Virus record (IMG/VR): IMGVR_UViG_3300048924_000634
Span: 1-42,990 of that record
DNA length: 42,990 bases
Direction: 5' to 3' (one strand)
From: a virus
In this document: positions 5,591-37,776 of the stretch, in pieces
How positions within the stretch are numbered: position 1 is the stretch's first letter
Layout: each line of letters begins with the position of its first letter
The notes under the pieces: generated by a model
The model's database searches: none
Seen by the model: the letters and a program-made list of their open reading frames with translations, nothing else
What the model was told of the DNA's origin: nothing
Made by a program: the position numbers and the translations under genes

Positions 5591-5868
5591 GAAATGGGCC
5601 CTCGGGGGGCATGCGCTCGTGCGGAAGACATGCCCCCTTTGGTCGGCGCGGCTACGGACATTTGAACCGCGCAAAGGGAATAGGTGCCAGCCCCGTAACG
5701 CTGTGGGGTTACAGCGCAACGGTTATTTCCTCCGCCGGAAGGTGTCGAACGGACGTTGGACCCGGTCGGGACGCTGGCGAGGCCCTCCCGGTTGTATGCT
5801 GAAAACTGGGCAAGCGATTGATGCAGACGAAAAATTGCGAGAGCGGTAGCGAGGGGAAAGCCGATCAT
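5587..5868 (-). CDS. Possible coupled small ORF (93 aa)
   Basis: The frame starts at ATG 5868, overlapping the Cro-like stop codon (ATGA), and ends in another ATGA overlap with the CII-like start. Such two-sided coupling is what a real gene in a phage operon looks like. The peptide is Ser/Gly/Arg-rich with little regular structure, though, and part of it lies over an inverted repeat (9-bp arms GGGGGCATG and CATGCCCCC at 5605-5613 and 5629-5637). The region could equally be an attenuator leader before the CII-like gene. Confidence 0.4.
   Translation of the reverse strand: MIGFPLATALAIFRLHQSLAQFSAYNREGLASVPTGSNVRSTPSGGGNNRCAVTPQRYGAGTYSLCAVQMSVAAPTKGGMSSARAHAPRGPIS
5605..5637. terminator. Inverted repeat before the CII-like gene (possible attenuator)
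   Basis: Perfect 9-bp arms, GGGGGCATG and CATGCCCCC, enclose a 15-nt loop 15 bp upstream of the CII-like start. On the plus strand it is followed by TTT. In lambdoid phages a terminator sits between cro and cII; this hairpin holds the same position, but there is no T-tract on the minus strand. Confidence 0.4.
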
Positions 5869-6149
5869 TCCGCTCGGTCCTCGGGAAAGGAGAACGCGAT
5901 AGGGAGCTGCTCACCCTCTTCACCGGGCACGGGCACACGAGGTTTCAGGCCCAATGCAACTGCAATCTGATGAGATTGCCCACGCACAGCCGCACGCTTG
6001 CCGGTCAGAACTTGGCGAACCAGATAATCAGAAAAACCGCGTTCTTTTGACCATTTGGCAACGCTCACTCCGCTCGCGACAAACTGCAGGCGGACACGCT
6101 CGACGCGGTCGTTCCAAGGTTCTTCAGAGCGGGAGTCGGAAACTGCCAT
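5865..6149 (-). CDS. Cro/Ner-like DNA-binding protein
   Basis: About 94 aa from ATG 6149 (a GTG at 6161 would add four residues). The core 'VAKWSKERGFSDYLVRQVLT', then 'GKRAAVRGQSHQIAVALGLK', is typical of the small phage DNA-binding proteins related to Ner/Nlp, in which the basic 'GKR' and 'RGQSH' segments contact DNA. It is the first gene of the minus-strand early operon and diverges from the repressor, so it plays the Cro part in the switch. Its leader is short (~27 nt from the predicted -10) and has no clear ribosome site. Confidence 0.7.
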   Translation of the reverse strand: MAVSDSRSEEPWNDRVERVRLQFVASGVSVAKWSKERGFSDYLVRQVLTGKRAAVRGQSHQIAVALGLKPRVPVPGEEGEQLPIAFSFPEDRAE

Positions 6150-6169
6150 CGAGTGTGTCACAGGTTGTT

Positions 6170-6568
6170 GTGGACCGACTCAATAATTCCAATTCGCTTG
6201 CGAATCGTCAAGAAGGATTCGCAGATGCGCAGGAAATTTCCGTGCGGCTTCGGGCTGCGCGGAAAAAAGCGCGCCTAAATCAATCGGAACTTGGGAAAAT
6301 TGGGGGGGTGTCTCTCAATACCCAAAGTGGGTATGAAAGCGGCACGTTGCCGCCCTTGGATTACCTCCTCCGTATCGGCGAAGCCGGAATCGATTGGTAT
6401 TGGGTCGTCACCGGCAACCGGATAACCGGTGATCCGCTCAATGATTCTGCACTAGACCTGCTTGCAGTCTTTAATGCGCTACCAGATGAGATTCAGGCAC
6501 TCGTGTTGATGCATGCACATGCCCTAAAAAACGCGTTTGTGGCGAGGGCGGAAAAGGCAAAATCTTAG
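6170..6568 (+). CDS. XRE-family phage repressor (CI-like, short form)
   Basis: A helix-turn-helix of the lambda/P22 repressor type: 'ISVRLRAARKKARLNQSELG', recognition region 'GVSLNTQSGYESG', then 'YLLRIGEAGIDWYWVVTG', as in short repressors of this class. There is no LexA-like peptidase domain, so induction would not be by RecA-driven self-cleavage. The start is uncertain. GTG 6170 gives 132 aa but runs over the operators, whereas GTG 6242 has a better ribosome site (AGGA, 7-nt spacing) but begins close to helix 1. It diverges from the Cro-like gene. The C-terminus contains an in-frame A-AAA-AAC heptamer, discussed separately. Confidence 0.8.
   Translation: MDRLNNSNSLANRQEGFADAQEISVRLRAARKKARLNQSELGKIGGVSLNTQSGYESGTLPPLDYLLRIGEAGIDWYWVVTGNRITGDPLNDSALDLLAVFNALPDEIQALVLMHAHALKNAFVARAEKAKS
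6183..6211 (-). promoter_or_regulatory. Early promoter with an operator inside its spacer
   Basis: On the minus strand TTGACG (6211-6206) is followed 17 bp later by AATTAT (6188-6183), a good sigma-70 match reading into the Cro-like gene. The spacer holds the inverted repeat ATTCGC-TT-GCGAAT (6192-6205). A related half-site, ATTCGC, recurs at 6217-6222 followed by ATGCGC. A protein bound here would block the promoter directly, so these are the likely OR-type sites of the repressor or Cro. Confidence 0.55.
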
Positions 6569-6753
6569 ACTCGAGGCCGACGCCAGCCTGGTTTCAGGGC
6601 GAGTGGCTGGAAACCCTGCGCCGATTGCCGCCGGCAGGCCGGGATGCCGTGACTGTCATGGGGCGGGTTGTTGCGGAGATCTCGTGGTCGAGGTGGCCGC
6701 GCGATGTCCGCGAAAGTTGCATTCTGTCATACTTTGTTGCAGCATTTGCCTAG
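6526..6753 (+). other. Protein-like -1 frame after the repressor, no canonical start codon
   Basis: From the slippery heptamer A-AAA-AAC at 6526-6532, the frame at -1 to the repressor stays open to TAG at 6751. From ~6560 on it reads like a real protein, e.g. TPAWFQGEWLETLRRLPPAG and EISWSRWPRDVRESCILSYF (internal stretches, shown separately). There is no ATG, GTG or TTG in this frame before an internal GTG/ATG near 6648-6656. It could be a frameshift product of the repressor, a gene that lost its start, or a gene with a non-standard start. The other two frames look non-coding here. Confidence 0.45.
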
Positions 6754-6776: not shown

Positions 6777-7148
6777 ATGAGTGCGTTGGTGGACGGCGTT
6801 GAGGCGGTCGAGGCGATAATCAGCGATCAACAAACTGCGGCATACCCCGATGCACCAATTCCAGGACAGGGATTGACCGTTTGCGGGTGGATATTTTTGA
6901 TGTTGGGCATCGCAACCGTTTTCGGTGCATGGATGTTTGATACGACGGTGATGTCTGAAAGTTTGGGCTCGCCTTTGGCTGGAACCTACGAGCCAGCCCA
7001 CAGCGTGGTGAATATCGGCCTCCAGCAGAAGCAGATGATGATTTTCCTCTCCGGCTTGGCTTTGTGCTTGGTAGGAATCATGGGGATCTATCTTGGAACG
7101 GCGACTAGTGCGATCCGCGCGGCATTTCTGACAGGGGCCAAGGCATGA
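6777..7148 (+). CDS. Small two-helix membrane protein
   Basis: 123 aa. Two hydrophobic segments, 'WIFLMLGIATVFGAWMF' (residues ~38-54) and 'MMIFLSGLALCLVGIMGIYL' (~87-106), flank a loop containing 'YEPAHSVVNIGLQQKQ'. That loop motif recurs in many small membrane proteins of unknown role on phages and plasmids of this bacterial group, from memory. A GGGGCAGGCAG purine run precedes the ATG. Its stop overlaps the start of the MtlR-like gene by 4 bp, so the two are co-translated. Both lie on the lysogenic strand behind the repressor, which suggests expression in the lysogen. Confidence 0.65.
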   Translation: MSALVDGVEAVEAIISDQQTAAYPDAPIPGQGLTVCGWIFLMLGIATVFGAWMFDTTVMSESLGSPLAGTYEPAHSVVNIGLQQKQMMIFLSGLALCLVGIMGIYLGTATSAIRAAFLTGAKA

Positions 7149-7837
7149 GTAGGGTTCAAAAGAGTAGAACCAAAGCGCCGTTTGCGGAACAAGATAAGAG
7201 TTGGCTATCTGAACTGGGTGAACGTACTGCATTATTTAACAAGACCGTGGAGGAATTGTCCATTCATCGCGATCGAGAATTGGCAATTGTTGCGTCTTCG
7301 TTGATGGATGATGTTCTAAAGGATTTGCTGCTTTCGTGTATCGTGGATATATCAGAAAATCATAAAAAAAGCTTATTCGATATTTCTGCTCCTTTAGGAA
7401 CATTTTCGGCAAGAATTAATCTTTCGGGAGCTTTTGGTTTTATATCGAAGAAGCAAAGGGACGATCTTAATTGTATTAGAAATATCAGAAACGAATTTGC
7501 GCATTCATATACTGGGCACTCATTTTCTGACGAGCCTATGAAATCTTTATGTGGCAGTCTGAAGCTTGTGTCTTCAAAGAATTATGCAAAATTGCGTGAA
7601 GGTTTTGCAGCGCATGATGAGATGTTGGAGACTTCCGTCGGCGAAGCTTATGTCCATGGCAAGCTTATTGAAATTGCTGTAACGGATGAAAATCAGAACG
7701 CAATTTTATGGGTGAGGCCTCTTGAGGTTGATTTCAAAAATCCCAGAAAACGGTTTATAAATTCAATAAAAATATTATACATGTCGATAGTAACTACAAC
7801 TCTTCTTCGGTATCAGAAGATTGGAAAGTTTTCTTAG
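7145..7837 (+). CDS. MtlR-family helical protein with a HEPN-like R-x4-H motif
   Basis: 230 aa. The stretch 'ISAPLGTFSARINLSGAFGF' then 'ISKKQRDDLNCIRNIRNEFA' + H is the signature region of the MtlR (mannitol repressor) family, an all-helical fold that does not itself resemble a DNA-binding protein. RNEFAH (residues 115-120) also satisfies the R-x4-H motif of HEPN ribonucleases, including the polar residue after Arg. The gene is markedly AT-richer than the phage backbone, a sign of recent acquisition. It is coupled to the membrane protein upstream. Role in the phage unknown; a lysogenic-conversion or defence function is inference only. Confidence 0.65.
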   Translation: MSRVQKSRTKAPFAEQDKSWLSELGERTALFNKTVEELSIHRDRELAIVASSLMDDVLKDLLLSCIVDISENHKKSLFDISAPLGTFSARINLSGAFGFISKKQRDDLNCIRNIRNEFAHSYTGHSFSDEPMKSLCGSLKLVSSKNYAKLREGFAAHDEMLETSVGEAYVHGKLIEIAVTDENQNAILWVRPLEVDFKNPRKRFINSIKILYMSIVTTTLLRYQKIGKFS

Positions 7838-8205: not shown

Positions 8206-8811
8206 CTAACAGGTCTCGGCTACGTAAATGAACGCGACGCCTTGTTCGTTGAGAAGGCCGGCGCAAATGTGGGACTTCTTGTCAGCCGATGAAATAATGT
8301 GATTGTCTAAAAGGGCGCCGATCTTTCGGAGCCATTGGATAATGGTATCTAGATCAACGTTGGGCCCAGATCGAGGCTCATTCAGTATGCGCTTTGCTGT
8401 GCCACGATGCAAAAATGATCCGCTTATTTTCCAGAGGTTTATAAGCTCATCTTTCGTGAGTTTGGGCACGGGATGATCATCTAGTTGCAGGCCATTTGGC
8501 TCAAATCTGAAGCGTACGCCTTGTGGGAAAAAATCAGGGTTCAATTCCTCCAGCCGAGCAATCATCACGCCGGGTTCATATCGCTTCAGAATGTTAGCGC
8601 CAGTGACATCTCCATGAGCGACCATGCATCCTAAGGCTATCGTTTCGCACAGTAGGCGAAGTTGCAGGTAGCAGAATTCTTGGAGCATGCGGGGTGCCCA
8701 ATTTTCTCGATCGTCTATTGCTCGTTCGAGTGAAGCGATCCTGATTCTGGCCTCATCCATCAAATCGGCGTAGATCTGATGTTCGGCTTTCAATTTTGGC
8801 GCTCCTTCCAT
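8206..8811 (-). CDS. Orphan cargo protein (201 aa), unknown family
   Basis: 201 aa, soluble and helical, with no signal peptide. Recognisable pieces are 'YLQLRLLCETIALGCMVAHG', 'NPDFFPQGVRF' and 'LTKDELINLWKISGSFLHRG'. The last resembles a 'LT-x-x-x-L-x-x-L-W-x-x-x-G-x-x-LHRG' pattern I have seen in conserved hypothetical proteins, but no function is known to me. It has lower GC than the backbone and is transcribed away from the HigBA operon, whose operators lie in its 5' flank; autorepression by HigA could therefore also affect it. Confidence 0.65.
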   Translation of the reverse strand: MEGAPKLKAEHQIYADLMDEARIRIASLERAIDDRENWAPRMLQEFCYLQLRLLCETIALGCMVAHGDVTGANILKRYEPGVMIARLEELNPDFFPQGVRFRFEPNGLQLDDHPVPKLTKDELINLWKISGSFLHRGTAKRILNEPRSGPNVDLDTIIQWLRKIGALLDNHIISSADKKSHICAGLLNEQGVAFIYVAETC

Positions 8812-8962: not shown

Positions 8963-9265
8963 ATGAGAATTATCGCCATCCCTCCCTTACGTGCGTTTCA
9001 AGCGCAATACCCAGACGCAGGCGCAGGCCTGCGAGACTGGGAGTCGACTACAAAACACTCGACGTTTAACCAGTCTTTGGAAGTCGTTCAGGCATTTCCG
9101 AATGCCAAAGCCATCAATGGCGAACGTGTCAGGTTTGCCATTGGCGGAGGAAAATACCGACTTGTGGTTTCATACCAATGGAAGGCACAAATCGCATATA
9201 TTAAATTTATTGGAACGCACGAAGAATATAACAAGATTGACCCTAAGGCTGTAAATAATTTTTAA
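8963..9265 (+). CDS. higB: HigB-family type II toxin (mRNA interferase)
   Basis: 100 aa. The fold marks are those of the HigB branch of RelE-like toxins: start 'MRIIAIPPLRAFQAQYPDA', 'LRDWE', the 'AFPNAKAINGERVRFAIGGG' region, 'KYRLVVSYQW' and the C-terminal 'AYIKFIGTHEEYNKID'. Family members cleave mRNA on the ribosome and stop growth when the antitoxin is lost. Toxin-before-antitoxin order, as here, is characteristic of HigBA. In a prophage it may stabilise the element or act in defence by abortive infection (inference). Confidence 0.9.
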   Translation: MRIIAIPPLRAFQAQYPDAGAGLRDWESTTKHSTFNQSLEVVQAFPNAKAINGERVRFAIGGGKYRLVVSYQWKAQIAYIKFIGTHEEYNKIDPKAVNNF

Positions 9266-9354
9266 TAAGTTTCACATTTCATCACCAAGTCCTTTCACAA
9301 TTTAAATCCGAAAAATATCTCGCTCAAGCGGGTACGGAGTAGGAGAATAGGCAT

Positions 9355-9735
9355 ATGAACGAGACCATTCTTGAGGTGCGTCCAATTCGCACCACCGCCG
9401 ATTACGAAAAAGCACTCCATATGATTAATCAACTTTGGACTGCCGAACCGGGTACTGAAGAATTCGATTATCTTGATGCACTTGCAACACTCGTTGAAGC
9501 ATATGAAACGAAGCATCATCCTGCTCCTGAACGTGACCCAATCGAAGCAATTGAGGACGCGATGGAAGCACATGGATACGCGCGCGCAGATCTGGCACTT
9601 TTGGTGGGCCAAAGCCGCGCGACTGAACTTCTCCAGCGGAAGCGTCCGCTTTCGCTGGAACAAATGCGTAAAATCAACCACGCATGGCACATCCCAATGG
9701 AAGTGCTGACTAAAGAGTATGCCCTCGCGGCCTGA
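9355..9735 (+). CDS. higA: HigA-family antitoxin with HTH domain
   Basis: 126 aa. The N-terminal part ('VRPIRTTADYEKALHMINQL' and 'LATLVEAYETKHH') is the toxin-binding region of the longer HigA class. The C-terminal part ('HGYARADLALLVGQSRATEL', 'LQRKRPLSLEQMRKI') is an XRE helix-turn-helix. It should neutralise HigB and, with it, bind the two operators at 8903-8946. It lies 89 bp after higB in the same operon and is followed by a strong terminator. Confidence 0.9.
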   Translation: MNETILEVRPIRTTADYEKALHMINQLWTAEPGTEEFDYLDALATLVEAYETKHHPAPERDPIEAIEDAMEAHGYARADLALLVGQSRATELLQRKRPLSLEQMRKINHAWHIPMEVLTKEYALAA

Positions 9736-11139: not shown

Positions 11140-11751
11140 TCATTCCGCCTGGGGAACATCGTCTGGTAAAAGCTTGCCTTTCATCATCATCGCGCGTGCT
11201 TTTTCGCGATTTGCCTCATATTCGTTTTTCTGCTGTGTCAAATAACTCATAAAGTTCCACTGTTTGTCCAATTTCAGCTTCTTCACGCCGAAAAGAGAAC
11301 GCAGCCGTTTGGCAAGCTTGAAGGCCTTAATGCCCATGTTGACGGTTGCCCACCGCATTTCGGCGATGCCATCCTCATCGTCGCCAAATTCCAATGTGCT
11401 CGCGATCTTCTGATCTGCCATTTCGATCTCGACCAGAAGGGAAAGGCATTTGGTGGTTTCTTTGACGCCGATTGAGTTCCAGTCTATTTCGGTTCGGTAT
11501 GATGGCTTGGCAGGAAGCCTTCCCCTTGGTTGACCTGCAAACCCTTCGGAAGCTGACCACAACTCGGAATCACTCACATAAATCGAGCATTCACGGGCGT
11601 AATCTTCAAGTGCGAGGGCCGCATATAGAGCTGAGTAACCGGCATCGCGCTTCCGCTTAAACCAATCTCTTACGACGGTGATAGATTGGGTCAGCGTAGC
11701 AGCGACCACGGACGATCCGGCAATCAAGCCTATTGTCGATGCTTCTGGCAT
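11140..11751 (-). CDS. Membrane-anchored orphan cargo protein (203 aa)
   Basis: One N-terminal membrane helix ('TIGLIAGSSVVAATLTQSIT', residues ~6-25) is followed by a basic stretch (RDWFKRKRD) and a ~150-residue cytoplasmic helical domain. No catalytic motif is visible. It is convergent with the gene at 10334 (2-bp gap), is AT-richer than its neighbours, and is transcribed against the late genes, the usual profile of a moron expressed from its own promoter in the lysogen. A TAATG junction links its start to a short open frame reading through the repeat at 11875. Function unknown. Confidence 0.65.
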   Translation of the reverse strand: MPEASTIGLIAGSSVVAATLTQSITVVRDWFKRKRDAGYSALYAALALEDYARECSIYVSDSELWSASEGFAGQPRGRLPAKPSYRTEIDWNSIGVKETTKCLSLLVEIEMADQKIASTLEFGDDEDGIAEMRWATVNMGIKAFKLAKRLRSLFGVKKLKLDKQWNFMSYLTQQKNEYEANREKARAMMMKGKLLPDDVPQAE

Positions 11752-36156: not shown

Positions 36157-36525
36157 CTATCTTTTCCGCCCTGCCAGCACCCATTTGACCACAGCGTAGG
36201 TCGTCGCGACCATCGTCCAAAACGCGGCTGCGATCGATGCCGCTATGCCAATTGCATATAAGGCCAACACAAGATCACTCGAACGTGCCCAGTCAGACAT
36301 GTACTGCGCGAGGCATGTTGGTGCGGCGGTTGGACACAATTTTTCAGCTAGGTTCCGCTGGTCCTGCGCGCCTTCCACGAGGTTCAGATAGGTCACCAGG
36401 CTGAAGCCGATCATCCAAAGTGTGGTCACGACGATACCGAGGCGGGCCCACATGCCTAGCCGATGGGTAGCTTTGCTGACCTCGTGAATGTTCCCGATCG
36501 GATTCATTTCGATATCCACCCCCAT
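36157..36525 (-). CDS. Small membrane protein with two helices (122 aa)
   Basis: 122 aa from ATG 36525 (ATG 36507 also possible, preceded by GGGGGTGG). Two membrane helices, 'LGIVVTTLWMIGFSLVTYLN' (~29-48) and 'LVLALYAIGIAASIAAAFWT' (~85-104), enclose a periplasmic loop with two Cys (LCPTAAPTCL) that could form a disulfide. The longer in-frame extension is shadow of the integrase and is rejected. It diverges from integrase 2, with a 57-bp gap holding the short inverted repeat TCCCG-TT-CGGGA (36541-36552). Function unknown. Confidence 0.65.
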   Translation of the reverse strand: MGVDIEMNPIGNIHEVSKATHRLGMWARLGIVVTTLWMIGFSLVTYLNLVEGAQDQRNLAEKLCPTAAPTCLAQYMSDWARSSDLVLALYAIGIAASIAAAFWTMVATTYAVVKWVLAGRKR

Positions 36526-36582
36526 GTTCAGACTGAGTTGTCCCGTTCGGGAACTTGGTCGCCCGTGCCAGAGGCCCATCAT

Positions 36583-37776
36583 ATGCTCACACCTGCCGCC
36601 GTAAAGGCCGCGCAGCCGCAAACGCGCGCCTATAAGCTGTGCGACGCCAAGGGCCTGCATCTGTTCATAGCGCCGACCGGGCTGAGGGCATGGCGTTTGA
36701 AATACCGCCGCGCCGGCCGCGAGCAGGTTGTGACCCTTGGCCACTATCCTTTCATGTCGCTGCCTGCGGCGCGCGCCGCACGCGACGCAGCAAAGGAGCG
36801 CCTGCGCGCTGGCGCCGCGCCGGTCGGCGCCCAGGCGGCTGACGAGATCTCGACTTTCGCCCAGCTCGCCCATGCGTGGCATGCTGACCAGGCCAAGCGC
36901 TGGTCGACCGTCCATGCGGCTGACGTGCTTGCCAGCCTCGAGCGGGACGTGTTCCCGGTACTGGGCGAGGAACTGCTGGCCTCGATCGACGCACCCATGG
37001 TCCTGCAGGTCCTCGAGTTGGTGGAAGGCAGGGGGCGGCTGGTGACGGGCAAGCGTATCCGCCAGCGGATCTCGAGTGTTTTCCGCTATGGCATCGCTCG
37101 CAAGCATTGTACCGAGGACCCGGCCGCAATCCTGTCGCGCTCCATGGCGCCGGCGCGGCCGCCGCGCCAGCATGCCGCGCTGTTGACGGCGGTGGAATGT
37201 CGTGAGCTGCTCGCCCGATGTTATAGCACCAGCACGCGGCCGGTCGTGTTGCTCGCGTCGCGCTTCCTTGCACTGACGGCTGTGCGTTTCGATGCGGTGC
37301 GCGGCATGTGCTGGGGGGAGGTCGAGGACCTGGACGGCAAAGAGCCGGTGTGGCGCGTGCCGGCGGCGCGGATGAAGCTCGCCCTAGTCAAGAAGAATGA
37401 TGGTCGGTTCGATCACCTGGTGCCGCTGAGCCAAGCGGCCGTGAAGGTCCTGCAGATTTGCCGCGCCGCGCTCGATCATGTTGCCGATGCCGGAGAATTG
37501 GTTTTTCGGGCTGGAGCGAACAACGTGCCGATCGGGGAGGGCGCCATTCGCCAGCTCTACATCGACGCCGGCTACAAGGGGCGCCATGTGCCGCACGGCT
37601 GGCGCGCCAGCTTTAGCACCATCCTCAACGAGCTGATGCCATCCGAGCGCGGCGAGATTGATCGTGCGCTGGCCCACACGCCGAAGGATAAGGTCGAAGC
37701 AGCCTATAACCGCTCAATGCAGCTTGCACGCCGACGCGCGTTGTTCGACCAGTGGGGTGCTTTGTTGACCGAGTAA
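36583..37776 (+). CDS. P4-type tyrosine integrase with arm-binding N-terminus (integrase 2)
   Basis: 397 aa. The DUF4102-type N-terminal domain is clear: 'MLTPAAVKAAQPQTRAYKLC', 'DAKGLHLFIAPTGLRAWRLK', 'YRRAGREQVVTLGHYPFMSL'. The catalytic set is complete: R235 (TAVRFD), H338 and R341 (HGWRASFST), H365 (ALAHTP), Y375 (AAYNRS). P4-type integrases nearly always insert in tRNA 3' ends (established), which matches the tRNA-Pro fragment 2.3 kb away. The start chosen at 36583 is where homology to the family begins. It should be active. Confidence 0.93.
   Translation: MLTPAAVKAAQPQTRAYKLCDAKGLHLFIAPTGLRAWRLKYRRAGREQVVTLGHYPFMSLPAARAARDAAKERLRAGAAPVGAQAADEISTFAQLAHAWHADQAKRWSTVHAADVLASLERDVFPVLGEELLASIDAPMVLQVLELVEGRGRLVTGKRIRQRISSVFRYGIARKHCTEDPAAILSRSMAPARPPRQHAALLTAVECRELLARCYSTSTRPVVLLASRFLALTAVRFDAVRGMCWGEVEDLDGKEPVWRVPAARMKLALVKKNDGRFDHLVPLSQAAVKVLQICRAALDHVADAGELVFRAGANNVPIGEGAIRQLYIDAGYKGRHVPHGWRASFSTILNELMPSERGEIDRALAHTPKDKVEAAYNRSMQLARRRALFDQWGALLTE

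Follow-up and report, generated by a model that had tools for sequence, protein, structure and literature searches.

The gene at positions 7145–7837 of a temperate phage encodes an MtlR-like HEPN protein, in which three residues of the HEPN motif are invariant among the aligned relatives. It overlaps the gene of a two-helix membrane protein, and none of the loci with relatives of either protein harbors both. The explanation favored here, to which we give about an even chance, is that the HEPN protein is an endoribonuclease, carried by the phage as low-GC cargo and made by the lysogen against superinfection, and that the membrane gene is a separate gene.

Gene pair and immunity region of the phage

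The stretch of DNA analyzed here, called the window in the following, comprises positions 1–42,990 and represents a complete virus record of 42,990 bases with a GC content of 63.1%. The genes found in the record for a terminase, a portal protein, a major head protein and an integrase (36463–37776) are those of a temperate tailed phage. A megablast search with positions 1–25000 matched no phage record. Two phages share a related tape measure protein with the record, but protein search detected no HEPN protein in them; both may be fragments. The distribution of the membrane-protein family suggests a sphingomonad as possible host, although the terminase is closest among named phages to that of Azospirillum phage Cd (42%).

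A repressor-like HTH open reading frame is located at 5954–6568 on the plus strand (Pfam HTH_3, 6.4e-5; phrog_8 transcriptional regulator, 3e-12). Its HTH comprises residues 99–142, and the true start of the repressor probably lies downstream of 5954. On the minus strand, a divergent HTH DNA-binding protein is encoded (5865–6161; phrog_925, 1.4e-16), which is Cro-like by position, and a CII-like gene is also present on this strand opposite the repressor. Due to these genes on the opposite strand and the presence of the integrase, it is reasonable to place the pair, as an earlier note on this DNA had done, on the lysogenic strand behind the repressor, where the repressor-like frame is found just upstream on the same strand. 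Between the end of the repressor and the membrane gene lies a further open frame (6571–6753, plus strand), which is coding-like, has no ATG, GTG or TTG before 6625 and gave no match to phages on search.

The gene of the membrane protein (123 amino acids, plus strand) runs from an ATG at 6777 to a TGA at 7148, followed by the HEPN gene (230 amino acids, plus strand) from an ATG at 7145 to a TAG at 7837. Both open reading frames were found as previously described and overlap by the 4 bp ATGA (7145–7148). The description of the pair as AT-rich holds for the HEPN gene with its GC content of 38.4% and fails for the membrane gene, which reaches 54.5% in comparison to the 63.1% of the record. The low GC content of the second gene in particular makes it look acquired. 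That the two reading frames are more than chance is indicated by relatives of both proteins at other loci and by the unvarying motif of the aligned MtlR-like relatives. The ATGA overlap fits a co-transcription of two lysogeny genes, and it could also reflect a functional coupling in this single phage. A scan for promoters and terminators at the pair recognized none, the result lying below the shuffle expectation, and a shared transcript is therefore proposed from the position of the genes.

Further downstream, a 201-amino-acid gene on the minus strand (8206–8811) has its sole match in phrog_13799 of unknown function (3.5e-10), with no relative in Pfam or the PDB. It is followed on the plus strand (8963–9735) by a HigB-type toxin (Pfam HigB_toxin, 6e-22) and a regulator-like gene (phrog_1373, 8e-16), which, judged from their matches, are probably a HigBA toxin-antitoxin pair and lie 1.1 kb past the HEPN gene. 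At 11140–11751 on the minus strand, a match to the PADLOC candidate defence family PDC-S67 (5e-20) marks another possible defence gene in the early region.

Fold and active site of the MtlR-like HEPN protein

The assignment to the MtlR family was confirmed by the Pfam model MtlR (PF05068), for which the HEPN protein scores 29.7 bits at a cut-off of 25.2 bits (E 7e-7) and which is matched by 103 of the 131 relatives at E 0.001. Furthermore, phrog_22031 is matched at 3e-13. The NCBIfam MltR subfamily model (NF008234) yields 30.4 bits, far below its cut-off of 149 bits, which indicates that the protein is not a close mannitol regulator.

The all-helical fold expected of an MtlR/HEPN protein was recovered in an AlphaFold2 model (single chain, 131 sequences, pLDDT 81.8). 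The best 14 chains in a Foldseek search are MtlR, YggD and HepS. Using VIA-align, the highest values were obtained for MtlR (3brj, Z 15.4, rmsd 2.1, 141 residues aligned; 6kcr, Z 15.3) and YggD (3c8g, Z 14.8), followed by HepS (9oij, Z 12.6, rmsd 3.6, 153 residues aligned, covering residues 23–230 of the model), the archaeal HEPN protein 2hsb (Z 9.8) and HepT (Z 8.8–9.4 in 7bxo and 5yep, with 9.4 for 7bxo). Helical models can reach a Z of about 13 by chance, a level which the MtlR matches clearly exceed and at which the HepS match lies; the latter may be backed additionally by an alignment of the motifs RNKYAH and RNEFAH, for which the profile E-value is only 0.027. MtlR, HepS, 2hsb and HepT head the fold list well above unrelated entries. 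Based on this model, the HEPN reading of 7145–7837 is well supported.

The sequence RNEFAH at residues 115–120 (codons 7487–7504, plus strand) contains the R-x4-H motif that the earlier note had recognized. A single helix, spanning residues 102–120, holds both R115 and H120 at a distance of five residues, and HEPN proteins carry their motif at that helix position. The motif also fits the definition given in passages of PMC3710099, namely R-x4-6-H with a polar residue after the arginine. The same passages place MtlR in the HEPN superfamily, report 60% motif conservation in the MtlR family, predict some of its members to be active RNases and propose that those lacking the motif bind RNA in a non-catalytic way. 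The membership of MtlR among HEPN proteins has been in print since 2013.

Relatives of the HEPN protein were obtained in several ways. A tblastn search identified 9 phage and 9 plasmid records, 13 of which were taken as loci, whereas H2, H5, H7, H9 and H12 were left out because their names, lengths and scores marked them as duplicate records of phages already included or as nearly identical to these. Pattern scans revealed MtlR-like relatives at no fewer than 80 viral and at least 80 genome loci from several phyla. Together, 173 MtlR-like loci were considered among the matches listed (13 named, 80 viral and 80 genome loci), with KS9 and Lo5R7ANS counted twice, once in the named and once in the viral set. 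When viral contigs were scanned for exact peptides of either protein alone, no relative was found, and blastn of the pair against E. coli genomes gave no match. For the alignment, the 160 loci of the viral and genome scans contributed 158 (all except L153 and L162, the motif filter removing no other), which were reduced to a pool of 137 relatives; seven of these were dropped by hand (L090, L119, L127, L150, L164, L167 and L174), and the remaining 130 together with the protein of the window form the 131 rows.

Within this alignment, the only columns of zero entropy are R115, N116 and H120, which are present in 131 of 131 rows and read RN-x3-H. Since the motif formed part of the patterns used in the viral and genome scans, which partly selected for it, a fair count has to come from searches without a motif requirement. 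Here, RN-x3-H is kept in 13 of 13 phage and plasmid relatives and in 12 of 13 Sphingomonadaceae loci. The thirteenth Sphingomonadaceae locus (L189) carries an in-frame stop at the expected arginine of the motif and is a broken copy. Also among the loci that did not match the motif pattern, RN-x3-H is kept in all 7 of the viral loci and in 19 of the 21 genome loci. The two exceptions, L153 and L162, have short open reading frames at the match, the only frames considered there, and are probably broken frames. The earlier note had regarded its reading as contradicted if the arginine and histidine were far apart or variable; they lie on the same helix and are invariant in the 131 rows.

It is conceivable that the protein is a non-catalytic, RNA- or protein-binding regulator, acting for example on the sugar metabolism of the host as MtlR does. 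The Pfam score and the best fold matches, which are MtlR chains (Z 14.8–15.4 including YggD), fit to this. According to the literature, the MtlRs as the best-studied relatives are mannitol regulators that show no DNA binding in vitro and act through HPr. In contrast to the two solved mannitol MtlRs that were aligned, of which that of E. coli reads REELNH and that of Vibrio has no motif, the motif of the phage and plasmid group is complete and invariant. Furthermore, the gene is placed in a phage immunity region, the NCBIfam MltR model is missed by a wide margin, and the named neighbors seen around the relatives are phage, plasmid or mobile-element genes. We therefore consider a purely regulatory role doubtful and, because of the fold and the conserved motif, favor the reading as an enzyme.

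As an enzyme, the protein could also be the toxin of a toxin-antitoxin pair serving prophage maintenance, with the membrane protein or another neighbor as antitoxin. HepT of the MntA-HepT pairs is among the fold matches and shares the HEPN fold and the R-x4-H motif. The HepT motif reads R-x4-H-x-Y, as it does in the protein of the window. However, this tyrosine (Y122) is not conserved among the relatives, tryptophan being the commonest residue at this position with 22 of 131. In contrast to the HepT systems, no nucleotidyltransferase (MNT)-like motif was detected in the six frames of the window using one regular expression, and no constant neighbor was seen around the HEPN relatives examined. 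A toxin-antitoxin function is for these reasons unlikely.

Two loci show further arrangements of such genes. In Rikenella microfusus (L119, 3104–4783), MtlR-like HEPN genes occur in tandem with an RN-x-F-A-H motif in both. In Onishia taeanensis (L107, 3342–4522), the MtlR-like HEPN gene is directly preceded by the gene of a protein that has the motif RNEAAH as well as a single predicted membrane segment and is predicted to be a second, membrane-anchored HEPN-like protein.

Linkage of the two genes and the membrane-protein family

In the membrane protein, two hydrophobic segments are found by hydropathy at residues 33–51 and 88–106, and a model based on 4 sequences only (pLDDT 72.7) displays helices at 31–53 and 80–122, in line with its description as a two-helix membrane protein. 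Family-library searches did not name it, and tblastn against phages and plasmids found no relative. Weak matches were obtained in 9 of 397 Sphingomonadaceae genomes at E 0.01. Four of these (L179–L182, with L181 as the weakest) were accepted as relatives on a shared signature, in which two helices enclose T-[ST]-V or a similar sequence followed, in three of the relatives, by N-x3-4-Q-x-Q; the other five were rejected, as the matched proteins were longer and unrelated or were fragments. Three of the four relatives served to build an alignment, which led to three viral relatives (L207–L209). The profile of the family matched 7 of 397 Sphingomonadaceae genomes at 1e-4, of which three (G181, G005 and G159) had provided alignment rows and match by construction, and the lowest two (E 2e-7 and 3e-5) are doubtful; among 385 genomes drawn from the class, there was no match at 1e-6.

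A linkage of the two genes elsewhere, without which the earlier note had regarded its pair of membrane sensor and HEPN effector as contradicted, was not found. The signature of the membrane family was found within 3 kb at 0 of the 173 MtlR-like loci, a test that is weak at the five loci with less than 400 bp upstream of the HEPN gene, and when the membrane protein was compared with these loci by tblastn, the best match had an E-value no lower than 0.75. Vice versa, a HEPN relative was detected by tblastn or motif at 0 of the 9 membrane-family loci. Any two-segment membrane protein of 70–250 amino acids is encoded tightly upstream of the HEPN gene at only 3 of 173 loci (L123, L124 and L159), and these proteins have no visible sequence relation to that of the window. 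Also a profile comparison of the two families gave no common origin. Since the two genes are unlinked elsewhere, they appear as parts assorted independently, and the pair as a conserved sensor and effector defence unit was rejected on the counts of 0 of 173 and 0 of 9.

Each gene by itself can be found next to a repressor. At two viral loci (L207 and L209) and in one prophage (L201), all without HEPN gene, an HTH or S24 repressor precedes the membrane gene on the same strand, whereas L208 has the membrane gene among late genes. Conversely, on one phage contig (L031), a related repressor (E 3.4e-7) lies 207 bp before a HEPN relative, and no membrane gene was called in between. This contig is the one case among the 80 viral loci in which a repressor was seen directly upstream of a HEPN relative, a lower bound because four repressor queries only were used; the same search gave 0 of 13 named and 0 of 80 genome loci. 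Two membrane-family loci have defence-like genes downstream. At L207 (2542–6802), an S24 repressor, a HIRAN-domain gene, the membrane-family gene and an HATPase/HSDR_N protein are encoded on one strand, and at L204 (5899–7763), an SLFN_AlbA_2 gene of the same orientation begins about 100 bp behind the membrane-protein relative.

These observations bear on the possibility that the two genes of the window nevertheless form one defence module, in which the membrane protein would sense the attack or anchor a partner and the HEPN protein would be the effector under its control. The translational ATGA overlap, the same-strand genes behind the membrane relatives of L207 and L204, and the HEPN domains joined to membrane segments with a proposed membrane sensing, which passages of PMC3710099 describe, would fit to such a module. 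In view of the missing linkage, the differing GC contents of the two genes and the unrelated families, this is improbable. A literature search, limited in extent, found no membrane-HEPN pair as a described system. The arrangement in the window resembles RexA/RexB of lambda, where a membrane and a soluble protein are likewise produced by the lysogen from genes behind the repressor, with a gene order that differs from that of the window. This likeness concerns the gene arrangement, and the pair of the window is not conserved elsewhere.

A more far-reaching variant would be that, in sphingomonad phages and mobile elements, the membrane protein serves as a constant platform, often beside the repressor, for swappable downstream effectors: the HEPN protein here, SLFN_AlbA_2 in L204 and HATPase/HSDR_N in L207. 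The HEPN protein would be triggered by a phage structural protein, and lysogens would gain exchangeable defences against superinfection. We rate this as very improbable. The membrane protein would rather belong to the lysogeny functions of sphingomonad phages as an independent gene product, which may exclude superinfecting phages by itself.

Proposed function and meaning

The favored reading is that of a HEPN gene that was acquired by a temperate phage, probably of a sphingomonad, as low-GC cargo behind the repressor. Due to this position, the protein is expected to be made in the lysogen. It would be present as a dimer that is silent at first and is activated by a trigger from a superinfecting phage. 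With its two R-x4-H motifs, the dimer would then cut RNA without a metal, and the cell would stop phage production; the membrane protein may share the transcript and act separately. A role in conflict is suggested by the carriage on prophages, phages and plasmids, where the relatives are found in varied places. PADLOC has no model for the HEPN protein of the window, and its matches among the 131 HEPN relatives are scattered with at most two members each.

A role in phage defence is plausible by analogy, as prophage cargo with a fold like that of HepS from the Gifsy-1 prophage. HepS (9oij and 9oik), known here from PDB titles alone, is the nearest non-MtlR fold and was solved with the lambda J tail tip. 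It is similar in prophage carriage and size, and its motif can be aligned at the profile E-value of only 0.027 given above, whereas the identity in the structural alignment is 12%. From this PDB entry comes the guess that the trigger might be a phage structural protein. Literature searches found no paper on HepS as a named system and, for 'MltR' together with prophage and the family annotation name, nothing on this gene. PMC9879122 describes a variable three-gene block in the Gifsy-1 immunity region of Salmonella 14028s that is needed to activate the RNA-repair regulator. Mitomycin C does not increase the expression of this block, and without the block the phage yield is two- to four-fold higher.

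Several public records label such proteins, which are found in phages, plasmids and chromosomes, as 'MltR family transcriptional regulator'. Since a complete HEPN active site is retained in nearly all the examples examined, candidate ribonuclease is the better label for them. Should they indeed act against phages, they would represent a common and overlooked class of effectors of prophages and plasmids, with a fold close to that of a prophage protein whose structure was determined together with a phage tail tip. The membrane protein, in turn, points by its lack of linkage to a second, independent lysogeny gene in sphingomonad phages.
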